Shown: positions 1,401 to 5,540 of the stretch, piece by piece | Layout of the letters: the number at the start of each line of letters is the position of its first letter | How positions within the stretch are numbered: position 1 is the first letter of the stretch | Source of the DNA: Candidatus Fermentithermobacillaceae bacterium | GTDB taxonomy: Bacteria; Bacillota; Sulfobacillia; Fermentithermobacillales; Fermentithermobacillaceae | DNA length: 35,807 nucleotides | Direction: 5' to 3' | Assembly: GCA_012842425.1 (NCBI GenBank) | Contig: DUSU01000045.1 | Location: 1-35,807 of the forward strand | Made by a program: the position numbers and the translations under genes | The notes under the pieces: model-generated | The model's database searches: none | The model's input: only the letters and a program-made list of their open reading frames with translations | Told to the model about the DNA's origin: nothing

Positions 1401-1446
1401 TTGCATGACTTAGGGTAACCTAATATACTTATGAGGAATACCTAAT
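1401..1446 (+). promoter_or_regulatory. dtxR-feoB promoter with two DtxR-type boxes
   Basis: A sigma-A-type promoter is visible: TTGCAT (1401-1406), a 17-base spacer, and TATACT (1424-1429). The spacer contains the inverted repeat TTAGG-GTAA-CCTAA (1410-1423). A second copy with one change, TGAGG-AATA-CCTAA, lies at 1432-1445, just downstream of the -10 box. The two centres are 22 bases apart, about two helical turns. The half-sites are those of DtxR/IdeR iron boxes, although the 4-base centre is shorter than in the classical 19-bp box. Binding would occlude RNA polymerase, giving metal-dependent autorepression. Confidence 0.75.
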
Positions 1447-1564: not shown

Positions 1565-2203
1565 GTGGAGCAGCGGTTTGAAAGCCAAGAAGAGTATCTC
1601 GAGCAAATATACCGCATAGACCCGGTTGGTCAGGTGCCTTTTTCCCAACTCGTCAAAGCGTTGGGGGTAAGAGGTCCATCGGTTAGCGAGATGTGCCGAA
1701 ACCTCGCCGCAAAAGGCTTGGTTCAATATACACCTCGGGTCGGCGTGGCACTCACCGATGAAGGGCGAAAACAAGCCCGTCAACTCATCCGGAGACACAG
1801 GCTGGCAGAGCGCTTGCTGACTGACCTGATAGGTCTCCCGTGGGAACGTGCCCACGACGAAGCCTGCAAGTACGAACACATCATGTCTGAGGAAGTCGAG
1901 CAGCTCTTGGCAGACGCTCTCCCAAATACCTGCCCCCACGGGAACCCGATAGACGGGACGGCTCCTAGCGCCGAGCCGCTTAGCTGTTTGGAGCTCGTGA
2001 CGCCGGCGGAAGTCGTACGCATTGAGCGCGAGGAGTCGAAGGTACTTAAGTATTTGGCCCAACTCGGGCTCGTTCCCGGAGCGAGCGTCAAGGTGATGGA
2101 CCGGGCCCCCCTAAACGGTCCGCTCCTCATCTCGGTCGGGGACGCCGTCTACGCTTTGGGGCGTGATGTCGCGGACCGGGTCATGGTGAGGAGGGATGCT
2201 TGA
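1565..2203 (+). CDS. DtxR-family metal-dependent transcriptional regulator
   Basis: Iron- or manganese-responsive repressor of 212 residues. Domain order: winged helix (about 1-65, FSQLVKALGVRGPSVSEMCR as the recognition region), dimerisation and metal-binding helices (about 66-135), then an SH3/FeoA-like C-terminal domain (about 140-210). The primary-site signature is C101-x-x-E104-H105, which corresponds to the Cys-Glu-His of DtxR/IdeR and not the Glu-Glu-His of MntR, so I favour Fe(II) sensing. Position 10 is Glu, where DtxR has Met. GTG start with AAGGAGGG at 1548-1554. The gene is the first of an operon with feoB (stop and ATG overlap at TGATG), and its promoter carries two matching inverted repeats. 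Family is certain; the metal is inferred. Confidence 0.92.
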   Translation: MEQRFESQEEYLEQIYRIDPVGQVPFSQLVKALGVRGPSVSEMCRNLAAKGLVQYTPRVGVALTDEGRKQARQLIRRHRLAERLLTDLIGLPWERAHDEACKYEHIMSEEVEQLLADALPNTCPHGNPIDGTAPSAEPLSCLELVTPAEVVRIEREESKVLKYLAQLGLVPGASVKVMDRAPLNGPLLISVGDAVYALGRDVADRVMVRRDA

Positions 2204-4335
2204 TGCAGCTGAGACGCAGGTGGCGTGCCGGTAAGGCCGGTGAATCTCAGCGGGCCCCATCTTGCCATCAAGTAGGGCCAAGCCTTCGGAAAGGGCCCGG
2301 CCATGATGTGGGATCATGCCATCAAAGGGGGACGGCAGTTTGTCCGGGCGGTTCGTGCTCGACGTGCCCGCTGGCTCCCGGCCATGGAGAGCTAGCCGTC
2401 GCTCTTGCCGGAAACCCGAACGTCGGCAAGTCAAGCCTCTTCAATCACCTTACGGGTTCTCGCGTTACTACCGCCAACTACGCTGGCAAGACGGTCGCGC
2501 TTAGCAAGGGACGTTCTGTGGCCTTCGGCAAAGTGATGACCGTTATCGATACCCCTGGAACGTACTCGCTCCAGGGCTTTTCCGAAGACCAGATCGTAGC
2601 AAGACACGGGCTAACAAACCCCAAGCCCAACGTAATAGTGGTTGTTCTAGACGCATCGAATCTGCGGCGCAATCTGCAGCTCTACGTTGAAGTAGCAGAC
2701 CTCGGAATACCGGTTGTTGTAGCACTCAATTTGGAAGACGAAGCACGGCGACTGGGGCGAATAGTAGAGCCTGACCGTCTTGCCTCTGTGTTGGGCGTAC
2801 CGGTCGTCGTCACAAACGGCCAGACCGGAGAAGGGATCCGGAGTCTCTGCGAGGCCGTCATGCAGGCGGCAGTGAGCCGTCCGGCCAGTCCCGTGAGATT
2901 GTCTCCCGAAGCCGAGCGCGCTATCGCAGAAGTTGCTGATGCCGTTTCACAGAAACTCCCCTCGGGTGTAGGCGGGCTGGGGCTCAGGGCCACGGCACGC
3001 TTGCTCATAGAGGGTGACTCGGAAACTTGGTCCCTCTTGGGCGATGGGCTCGCGGAGCGAGTCCGCCCCGTCGTAGAAAGAGTCAAGCAGAACCTCAGGG
3101 AGGCAGGAGCGTGGCCCCTTGCTACCGAGCGCGTGAGGGCCATCGCCCGGCTGGCCGTAGACGTCACCCGACAGATGAGGCGCAGTGGCGACTGGCTGCT
3201 ATCTCTGTGGCGCCTCAGCATCGACCGCACGTGGGGACCCCTTATACTGCTGGGAGTCCTAGGGTTTACTTTCTGGTACATGTACTCTGTCGGCGGCATC
3301 CTATCCGAGACTCTGGGAGGGCTCTGGGGAGACATCGCCATGCCACATATAGCTGCCCTCGGAAGCCTGCTGTTCGGGTCGGGAGTGCTGTCGCGCGTGT
3401 TCGTCTGGACCTTCGGCAGTGGAATCGAGGCACTCCTAACCGTAGGTATCCCGTACGTGTTCACCTTCGAGCTGCTGCTATCGCTCCTCGAGGATAGCGG
3501 GTATCTAAACGCCGCGGCCTATCTCGCCGATTCAGTGATGCGCCCGCTCGGCCTTAACGGGAGGGCCATAATCCCGATGATATCCGGCACAGGCTGCAAC
3601 GTGCAGGCGATTTTGGGTACTCGGATACTCGCAAGCAGGCGAGAGCGGTTAATAGCCTCAACCCTCATCGCGCTCGTACCATGCTCGGCGCGTATTGCCG
3701 TGATCATGGGATCGGTCGGCGCGGTCTCGGGCTGGGCTGCCGCCGCAGCCCTGGGCGTGGTCCTGATCCTCATAATGGGGGCCGTGGGCATCTTGCTGAA
3801 CCGGATCCTTCGGGGCGAGCGCCAAGAGATAATGATGGAGATGTTTCCTCTGAGGCGCCCGCTCCTGAAAGCCGTGCTCGGGCGTACCTGGGATAAGTTC
3901 TCGGGTTTCATGCGCGAGGCCGTGCCCTACATGCTCCTGGGAAGTATGGTCGTCGGGTTCCTTTACGAGACGGAAACCATGTACCACCTGGTGAGACCCC
4001 TTAAGCCGGTTGTGTCGGGGATACTCGGACTTCCGGAGGTCGTCGGTATCGCCCTGCTTTTCGCCGCCCTGCGGAAAGAGATCGCCCTTCAGCTCTCCGT
4101 GGCGCTTGCCGCGATGGTAACCGGCAATCCTTCGGCGACTCTGTCTTCGCTCATGGACCCCAACCAGATATTCATTTTTGCCCTGGTGAGCAGCCTGTAT
4201 ATCCCGTGTTTGGCGACATACAGCGCTCTCTCCCACGAGCTCGGGAAGCGGCAGGCTTTCGGGATCTCCATTGTCACAATCGTCCTGGCGGTATCTGTAG
4301 GCTTCCTCACGCGAGTCGTACTTGCCGTGTTCTAG
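2203..4335 (+). CDS. feoB: Ferrous iron transporter FeoB
   Basis: Cytoplasmic-membrane Fe(II) importer of about 710 residues. Residues 1-62 form an unusual hydrophilic leader with Cys at 21, 39, 47, 52 and 55, including two Cys-His-Gln motifs and CPGGSCSTC. The G domain follows: G1 GNPNVGKS (70-77), G3 DTPG (116-119), G4 NLED (176-179). A helical GDI-like segment leads into the membrane domain, with the gate motif SGTGCNVQAILGTR and a second conserved segment ending YIPCLAT. The ATG overlaps the regulator's stop codon by one base, implying translational coupling; an in-frame TTG lies one codon upstream. No separate feoA is present. Expression is expected to be shut off by the upstream DtxR protein when iron is plentiful. 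Confidence 0.96.
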   Translation: MQLRRRWRAGKAGESQRAPSCHQVGPSLRKGPGHDVGSCHQRGTAVCPGGSCSTCPLAPGHGELAVALAGNPNVGKSSLFNHLTGSRVTTANYAGKTVALSKGRSVAFGKVMTVIDTPGTYSLQGFSEDQIVARHGLTNPKPNVIVVVLDASNLRRNLQLYVEVADLGIPVVVALNLEDEARRLGRIVEPDRLASVLGVPVVVTNGQTGEGIRSLCEAVMQAAVSRPASPVRLSPEAERAIAEVADAVSQKLPSGVGGLGLRATARLLIEGDSETWSLLGDGLAERVRPVVERVKQNLREAGAWPLATERVRAIARLAVDVTRQMRRSGDWLLSLWRLSIDRTWGPLILLGVLGFTFWYMYSVGGILSETLGGLWGDIAMPHIAALGSLLFGSGVLSRVFVWTFGSGIEALLTVGIPYVFTFELLLSLLEDSGYLNAAAYLADSVMRPLGLNGRAIIPMISGTGCNVQAILGTRILASRRERLIASTLIALVPCSARIAVIMGSVGAVSGWAAAAALGVVLILIMGAVGILLNRILRGERQEIMMEMFPLRRPLLKAVLGRTWDKFSGFMREAVPYMLLGSMVVGFLYETETMYHLVRPLKPVVSGILGLPEVVGIALLFAALRKEIALQLSVALAAMVTGNPSATLSSLMDPNQIFIFALVSSLYIPCLATYSALSHELGKRQAFGISIVTIVLAVSVGFLTRVVLAVF

Positions 4336-4423
4336 CAGTATCCTGGGAGGCGTTCACCCGGAGACCATTAGTCCCGGGGATACGGGTCCGCGCGGTTTTC
4401 CGGCGGTCTCCGGTCGGGCTCGC

Positions 4424-4453
4424 GTCACAAGTGGCGTCGCCGGAGAGTATGAT
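4424..4453 (+). promoter_or_regulatory. Probable promoter of the NiCo riboswitch-CDF unit
   Basis: GTCACA (4424-4429) and TATGAT (4448-4453) are separated by 18 bases and would place the transcript start just before the riboswitch aptamer. An alternative -10, TACAAT, lies at 4455-4460. Assignment rests on position and partial consensus match. Confidence 0.45.
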
Positions 4454-4467
4454 GTACAATGGTGATG

Positions 4468-4557
4468 ATCTGAGCAGGCGATGAGCCCGACCGGGTTCAT
4501 GGGGCCGGGCCTATTCTTAGGCAGCAGGTGACTATCGAACGCATCTGCGGGACAGAT
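4468..4557 (+). ncRNA. NiCo riboswitch aptamer (czcD motif)
   Basis: The stretch fits the four-way-junction NiCo (Ni2+/Co2+) riboswitch. P1 is ATCTG (4468-4472) with CAGAT (4553-4557). The conserved junction TGAGCAGGC (4471-4479) follows. P2 is ATGAGCCC (4481-4488) paired with GGGTTCAT. P3 is GCCTA (4509-4513) with TAGGC (4518-4522) after the conserved GCCGGGC. P4 is CAGGTG (4525-4530) with CATCTG (4542-4547), followed by the conserved GCGGGACAG. These elements match, from memory, the crystallised NiCo RNA in order and junction sequence. It sits directly upstream of a cation-efflux gene, the usual location of this class. Confidence 0.9.
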
Positions 4558-4576
4558 ATTCCGCAGATGCGTTTTT
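4539..4576 (+). terminator. Intrinsic terminator, riboswitch expression platform
   Basis: A 12-bp perfect stem, ACGCATCTGCGG (4539-4550) with CCGCAGATGCGT (4561-4572), is followed by TTTTT. Its 5' arm contains the CATCTG that forms aptamer helix P4 and the GCGG of the conserved junction, so aptamer and terminator are mutually exclusive. Metal binding should hold the aptamer together, block the terminator and switch on the efflux gene. Confidence 0.9.
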
Positions 4577-4601
4577 CTGTCACGGGGTTGGAGGAATGAC
4601 C

Positions 4602-5540
4602 ATGATACGCTTCTTGATCGCGCGGTTTGTCAAGGACTATCAGAACGTGGCCGACAAGAACGTGAGGGAAGCCTACGGGACCTTGGCCGGAACACTGGGG
4701 ATCGTCTGCAATGTGTTGCTTTTCGCGTTGAAGATCTCCATCGGTCTCCTCACTAACAGCGTGGCTGTTATCTCCGACGCCGTTAACAACCTAACGGACA
4801 CCGGTTCCTCGGTCGTGGCCATCCTCGGCGCCAAGATGACAAACCGCCCCCCGGATAAGGAGCATCCCTACGGGCACGGCAGATCGGAGTACATCGCATC
4901 GCTGGTTGTCTCTTTCATCATCTTCGCGATGGGCGTTGAGCTTATGAGGACTTCCTTCGGGAGACTTCTGAGCGGGGAGAAGGTGCTTTGGAACCCATAT
5001 CTCACGGTTGCGCTCGCGCTCTCGGTCCTCGTGAAGGTGTGGATGTTTTCCTACAACAGGTATATCGCGAATGTCATCGACTCGAAGCTGAGCCGGGCGG
5101 CCGCTAAGGACAGCCTCAGCGACGCTTTCGCCACGGGAGCAGTTGTCATGAGTACGGTGTTGGGAAGATACACCGCGTTTCCGGTTGACGGCGTGCTCGG
5201 CATGGCCATCAGCGTTGCCATCATGTATACCGGCTTCAGCACGGCAAGGGACTCCATTGACCAGCTCCTGGGCCTCCCGCCCGACCCCGAGATGAGAGCG
5301 AAGATCGAGGCCACAGTCATGAGCAGTAAGAGCATACTTGGAGCCCACGACTTGAGAGTCCATGATTACGGTCCCGGACGCACCCTTGCCTCAATCCACG
5401 TACAGGTTTCCGACGAAGCAAACATCGTCGAAATCCACAACGAAATCGACCGCATCGAGAAGCAGATCGAAAAGGAACTCGGCGTGAGCATGGTGATCCA
5501 TGTGGATCCCGAACCGCCTGAGCCCGGACACCTGGCATGA
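4602..5540 (+). CDS. Cation diffusion facilitator (CDF) metal efflux protein
   Basis: Inner-membrane metal/proton antiporter of about 312 residues: six predicted helices and a C-terminal cytoplasmic ferredoxin-like domain (from about 210, ending HVDPEPPEP). Signature segments are SDAVNNLTDTGSS in the second helix, HPYGHGRSEYIASL after it, and DSLSDAFATG in the fifth helix. The Asn/Asp-xxx-Asp site residues resemble the MneP/MneS (manganese) branch of the family. The NiCo riboswitch upstream points instead to export of nickel or cobalt; either or both are possible. Two ATGs compete. I prefer 4602, since GGAGG at 4590-4594 is only one base from the 4596 ATG but seven from the second. It ends 14 bases before the convergent arginase-family gene, with no clear terminator between. 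Confidence 0.93.
   Translation: MIRFLIARFVKDYQNVADKNVREAYGTLAGTLGIVCNVLLFALKISIGLLTNSVAVISDAVNNLTDTGSSVVAILGAKMTNRPPDKEHPYGHGRSEYIASLVVSFIIFAMGVELMRTSFGRLLSGEKVLWNPYLTVALALSVLVKVWMFSYNRYIANVIDSKLSRAAAKDSLSDAFATGAVVMSTVLGRYTAFPVDGVLGMAISVAIMYTGFSTARDSIDQLLGLPPDPEMRAKIEATVMSSKSILGAHDLRVHDYGPGRTLASIHVQVSDEANIVEIHNEIDRIEKQIEKELGVSMVIHVDPEPPEPGHLA

Follow-up and report, generated by a model that had tools for sequence, protein, structure and literature searches.

The window analysed here, a 35,807-nucleotide stretch of DNA from a Candidatus Fermentithermobacillaceae bacterium, contains a leader that very probably works as a transcriptional ON switch of the NiCo (czcD) class and controls a metal-export pump of the CDF family. 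The riboswitch itself is one more clear member of its class and its platform is ordinary. The setting matters more than the riboswitch, the class being already well populated. It is disputed whether the class has Ni/Co or Fe as its ligand in vivo, and a switch with a Mn/Fe-type exporter behind ferrous-iron uptake genes is a clean natural construct for that question, with a built-in comparison between 48 targets that have an HD-HD metal site (A-site) and 3 that have ND-DD. The original prediction for this leader missed both the iron-uptake operon just upstream and the fact that terminator and metal site overlap. The features discussed below are collected in Table 1.

Table 1. Features of the leader and its neighbouring genes in the window.
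Feature	Position	Strand	Details and basis
Palindrome TTAGGGTAACCTAA and degenerate copy	1410..1445	+	1410-1423, with the degenerate copy 22 bp on at 1432-1445; upstream of the regulator-feo genes
DtxR/IdeR-type regulator fused to FeoA domain	1565..2203	+	PF01325, PF02742, PF04023
FeoB ferrous-iron transporter	2200..4335	+	TIGR00437, 398.9 bits (cut-off 315.65)
Promoter -10-like block, TATGATGTACAAT region	4448..4459	+	Abuts the 5' side of the aptamer
NiCo (czcD) riboswitch aptamer	4460..4557	+	RF02683 match
P1, 5' strand AUCUG	4468..4472	+	Pairs with 4553-4557; Rfam alignment and fold
P2 hairpin	4477..4506	+	4477-4479/4504-4506 and 4481-4488/4493-4500; Rfam model and folding
First conserved GGG	4507..4509	+	Invariant in 38 relatives
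P3 hairpin	4509..4522	+	4509-4513/4518-4522; Rfam model and folding
P4 helix	4524..4548	+	Arms 4524-4530/4542-4548, 7 pairs, one G-U; Rfam model and folding
Intrinsic terminator	4537..4576	+	Stem 4537-4552/4559-4574, T-run (T5) 4572-4576; predicted fold
Conserved GGGAC junction, second metal-site strand	4549..4553	+	Invariant in 38 relatives; GGGA pairs within the terminator
Shine-Dalgarno GGAGG	4590..4594	+	
CDF metal exporter	4596..5540 (likely start 4602)	+	PF01545, E 3.1e-47; PF16916, E 3.5e-13

The leader had been assigned to the NiCo class from its letters, with a covariance-model search proposed as a check. That search, when run, returned a full-length match to the Rfam NiCo model (RF02683, model positions 1-96) at 4460-4557 on the plus strand, with 62.6 bits (E = 2.8e-12) against a gathering cut-off of 37 bits. 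The NiCo element stands alone among the Rfam matches in the 35.8 kb window, and it is the single NiCo copy in the source genome, which is about 84% complete. Matches to narK and mir-7445 near the aptamer scored far under the cut-off and were taken as chance. Rfam alignment and folding place the four helices as they had originally been seen, around a junction with the conserved sequences GAnCAGGC, GCCGGG, GGCAGC and GGGAC. When 38 relatives within the phylum are aligned, 18 columns are invariant, and the window keeps all 18, both GGG elements included. Compensating double changes occur in 15 of the 22 consensus pairs of this alignment, and P1 also covaries. Guanines G46, G47, G87 and G88 coordinate the metal in the class (PMC7689651). 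By alignment order, the two GGG elements of the window would correspond to these four residues, and GGG 4507-4509 probably represents the G45-G47 element of the Co-bound Erysipelotrichaceae structure.

The platform is followed by an intrinsic terminator. The original prediction of a perfect 12-bp stem that reuses the P4 3' arm was right about the 12 Watson-Crick pairs (4539-4550/4561-4572), but incomplete: the 5' side of the stem consists of the P4 3' arm plus the GGGA of the GGGAC junction, and flanking A-U and G-U pairs bring the predicted stem to 16 pairs. Since GGGA lies inside this stem, formation of the terminator would remove one half of the metal site along with P4. The leader has a minimum free energy of -56.1 kcal/mol, lower than all of 200 dinucleotide shuffles (z = -5.1). 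In stepwise folding of the growing transcript, a model that leaves kinetics, pausing and bound metal aside, P4 and P1 have formed by 4556-4558 (-37.1 kcal/mol), the aptamer stands with both closed at 4558-4564, and the terminator replaces it from about 4566 to reach the final -56.1 kcal/mol. The shared sequence and the stepwise folding thus bear out the proposed mutual exclusion of P4 and terminator, and the predicted order of events, aptamer before terminator, supports the ON logic.

According to the model that follows, without metal the P4 3' arm and the junction GGGA would pair with 4559-4574 to form the intrinsic terminator, and transcription would end about 25 nt ahead of the CDF start codon. 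A divalent transition metal bound at the four-way junction through its two GGG elements would keep P4 and P1 closed; the terminator strand would then be left partnerless, and polymerase could continue into the CDF gene. Metal binding and read-through are carried over to the window leader from the class and may be expected by analogy. The terminated state was also considered to include an anti-aptamer helix between the 5' strands of P1 and P4. This helix appears in the minimum free energy fold of the window and of one congener (G233), is absent in a second (G419) and is found in just 23 of 74 relatives, and we therefore leave it out of the proposed mechanism.

The same layout is widespread. Of 80 NiCo leaders, counting that of the window, 74 place a hairpin ahead of a T-run in which the GGG and the P4 3' arm are both paired within the hairpin stem, compared with 64 of 400 controls in which the downstream bases were shuffled. 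The terminator that takes up the P4 3' arm and GGG is a rule of the class and no speciality of the window, so the special value that had been placed on a readable platform was overstated. Nor does the description of a small class hold, as 72 of 398 genomes of the same phylum have a copy above the cut-off; 15 of 154 genomes of the same class do so. Within the phylum, the genes behind NiCo riboswitches encode a CDF protein in 52 of 76 cases and a P-type ATPase in 21 of 76, and one of these ATPases, when tested with NCBIfam, was most like PMR1-type pumps. Three genomes (G206, G255 and G181; loci L095, L090 and L089) contain two to three NiCo riboswitches within a few kb, with P-type ATPase and CDF targets.

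An element 124 nt past the feoB stop codon and with a strong predicted terminator might instead serve merely to end the feoB operon, without any sensing. We consider this highly improbable, since the NiCo match is full-length and far over the cut-off, all of the invariant junction residues are kept although a terminator does not need them, and the aptamer is preserved in G419 and G233 though the spacer is not. An inverted repeat, CCGGAGACC...GGTCTCCGG, occupies 4369-4425 between feoB and the aptamer, in spacer that is unconserved in the congeners.

The ON switch may have a promoter of its own. The -10-like block at 4448-4459 is preserved at all three congeneric loci, the spacer upstream of it is not, and a weak -35 match (GTCACA) lies at 4424-4429. 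Transcription coming from the feoB operon might also read the leader, and this weak promoter would then matter less; in G419 the aptamer begins only about 16 nt past the feoB stop. Across 80 NiCo loci (L031-L108 and the window), 43 have TANNNT no more than 14 nt ahead of P1, as against 13 of 80 in a control stretch, and the combination with a suitably spaced TTG -35 occurs at 21 loci versus 1 in the control. Because the promoter so often abuts the aptamer, the ACAGUA with which the Rfam model opens probably reflects promoter DNA, and not RNA structure, in many members. At the other end of the leader, the CDF gene likely starts at ATG 4602 rather than at 4596, judging from the sequence: GGAGG then leaves a spacing of 7 nt, and G233 lacks an in-frame start at the position of 4596.

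The genes upstream of the riboswitch point to iron. FeoB is preceded by a protein in which regulator and transport accessory are one, and the two listed reading frames overlap by 4 bp. The closest solved relatives of the regulator-FeoA protein are the iron-dependent IdeR/DtxR proteins. Its EACKYEH aligns with IdeR EACRWEH and keeps the metal-site Cys-x-x-Glu-His, while the Met of IdeR TTEMYL in the N-terminal helix is replaced by Glu; the NCBIfam cut-offs for DtxR and MntR were not reached by this protein. Both copies of the palindrome upstream of these genes are preserved in G419 and G233, and its stricter form occurs a single time in the genome of the window. The 1410-1445 pair is iron-box-like and a candidate operator of the TTAGGn4CCTAA type known for DtxR/IdeR repressors.

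The exporter itself, which matches both CDF domain models and which the original prediction had correctly taken as the target, is of an uncommon kind for the class. Aligned to E. coli FieF/YiiP, it has N, D, D and D at YiiP positions D45, D49, H153 and D157, that is, an A-site of Asn-Asp in TM2 and Asp-Asp in TM5 (ND-DD). Among 54 CDF proteins encoded behind NiCo riboswitches, 48 are HD-HD, three in total are HD-ND, HD-ED or HD-DD, and three are ND-DD: those of the window, of its congener G233 and of the unrelated G030 (41% identical). In a tree of 116 CDF proteins, the ND-DD proteins form a single strongly supported clade in which the NiCo-bearing members occupy two separate places, and no recognisable NiCo riboswitch was found at the scanned loci of CDF proteins nearer to that of the window, with identities of up to 58%. 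These two observations suggest that the switch was probably recruited to the ND-DD type of CDF at least twice, the alternative being a single gain followed by many losses. G386 has two NiCo riboswitches elsewhere and none ahead of its own ND-DD CDF. No other metal riboswitch was found at gathering level directly before ND-DD CDF genes at the loci scanned in the phylum.

A further set of 80 named ND-DD proteins was retrieved by a pattern search that included the NN motif, which accounts for the NDDD site in all 80; the named relatives of the window CDF are mostly from Bacillota. Directly before these 80 genes there was just one weak NiCo-like match, of 25.5 bits (cut-off 37), in a Lachnospiraceae MAG (L189:5760-5842). 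It has GGGAT for GGGAC and lacks a clear terminator, and it is possibly a degenerate or variant member of the class. In another genome (G361, L177:997-1171), a cobalamin riboswitch and a CDF gene of the HDDD type share a strand, the riboswitch lying just 3' of the gene.

The block of regulator-FeoA, FeoB, riboswitch and CDF is found together in three congeners. The fourth, G420, which is 97% complete, lacks the riboswitch, the CDF gene, a close FeoB and the palindrome. An in-frame stop in the CDF gene of G419 was considered as a disruption; it is instead where the gene, slightly shorter in G419, normally ends. Beyond this genus, no clear feoB was detected within 10 kb of the riboswitch among about 80 NiCo loci, apart from one weak partial match, and the neighbouring genes of about 75 NiCo loci had no common metal theme. 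A general link between NiCo riboswitches and iron uptake is rejected on the basis of these loci, feoB being near the riboswitch in this genus alone.

The question of the ligand has to be seen against this background. A review calls the cognate metal of the czcD riboswitch unclear: the original work described cooperative Co/Ni binding, later buffered anaerobic work found that Fe(II) and Zn(II) also elicit a response, and Fe(II) and Mn(II) are the sole metals expected at binding levels in cells (PMC7689651). On the side of the exporters, ND-DD is the A-site of a bacterial CDF clade shown to be Mn-selective, whereas HD-HD occurs in Zn and Fe clades; the authors themselves warn that the correlation between motif and selectivity is loose (PMC5703985). 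The Mn-exporting CDF proteins MneP and MneS of B. subtilis export iron too (PMC9993123).

Within the ON-switch model, we see about an even chance that in this lineage the leader in effect responds to an overload of Fe(II) (or Fe/Mn). Spelled out, this reading has an iron-repressed operon for Feo uptake and, behind it, a riboswitch that would permit transcription of the exporter at high free ferrous iron only. The IdeR-like regulator-FeoA fusion and FeoB lie directly upstream on the same strand, the iron-box-like palindrome is present in three congeners, and its absence from G420 coincides with that of a close FeoB, the riboswitch and the CDF gene. The ND-DD site of the exporter, together with the iron export by MneP/MneS and the restriction of expected cellular binding to Fe(II) and Mn(II), points the same way. 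However, the proximity of feoB is confined to this genus, no iron genes were found beside the ND-DD CDF gene of G030, which likewise follows a NiCo riboswitch, and 48 of the 54 CDF proteins of the class carry an HD-HD site found in Zn and Fe clades alike. The loose correlation of motif and selectivity also weakens the argument, and the window aptamer is unchanged at the invariant positions, with nothing hinting at a shifted ligand.

The switch might alternatively sense Ni(II)/Co(II), the CDF protein exporting Co/Ni and the Feo neighbours being coincidental. This agrees with what in-line probing and a Co-bound structure have shown for members of the class (PMC7689651), and with most members driving HD-HD CDF genes that have no iron genes close by. 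Such a reading does not sit easily with the ND-DD site of the window protein, with the joint inheritance of the whole block in the genus or with affinities that are weak relative to cellular Co/Ni (PMC7689651), and we regard it as rather doubtful, at roughly one chance in three. In this lineage the context is more in keeping with sensing of Fe(II)/Mn(II) than of Ni/Co, but it is lineage-specific and does not prove the ligand.

Taken further, the iron reading gives a picture that we hold tentatively, at a little short of even: the czcD-type switch was placed before an ND-DD CDF gene at least twice independently, and in this genus it ends an iron-repressed Feo operon, so forming a module that couples protein-based repression of uptake with RNA-based, iron-induced efflux. 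If true, the coupled module would count as contextual evidence, drawn from organisms beyond those already studied, for Fe(II) (or Fe/Mn) as the ligand of the class.

Finally, the window locus may be compared with known systems. MneP and MneS of B. subtilis and MntE are likewise CDF exporters tied to Mn, and MneP/MneS are also tied to Fe (PMC9993123), but MneP and MneS are controlled in B. subtilis by the protein MntR with no riboswitch. The window CDF scores 118.7 bits with the MntE equivalog model NF052621, under its cut-off of 500, and so is not named MntE. The yybP-ykoY Mn(II) riboswitch senses metal and exerts ON-type control over exporters of Mn and other metals, and by analogy the window leader would resemble it in this logic; no yybP-ykoY match was found in the window or at the other ND-DD CDF loci scanned in the phylum. 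The closest system is the NiCo/czcD class itself (RF02683), which the window element matches in sequence, four-helix junction, GGG metal-site elements, terminator built from the P4 3' arm and GGGAC, and CDF target. The difference is one of setting only, the target in the window being an ND-DD protein in place of HD-HD and lying behind a Feo operon.
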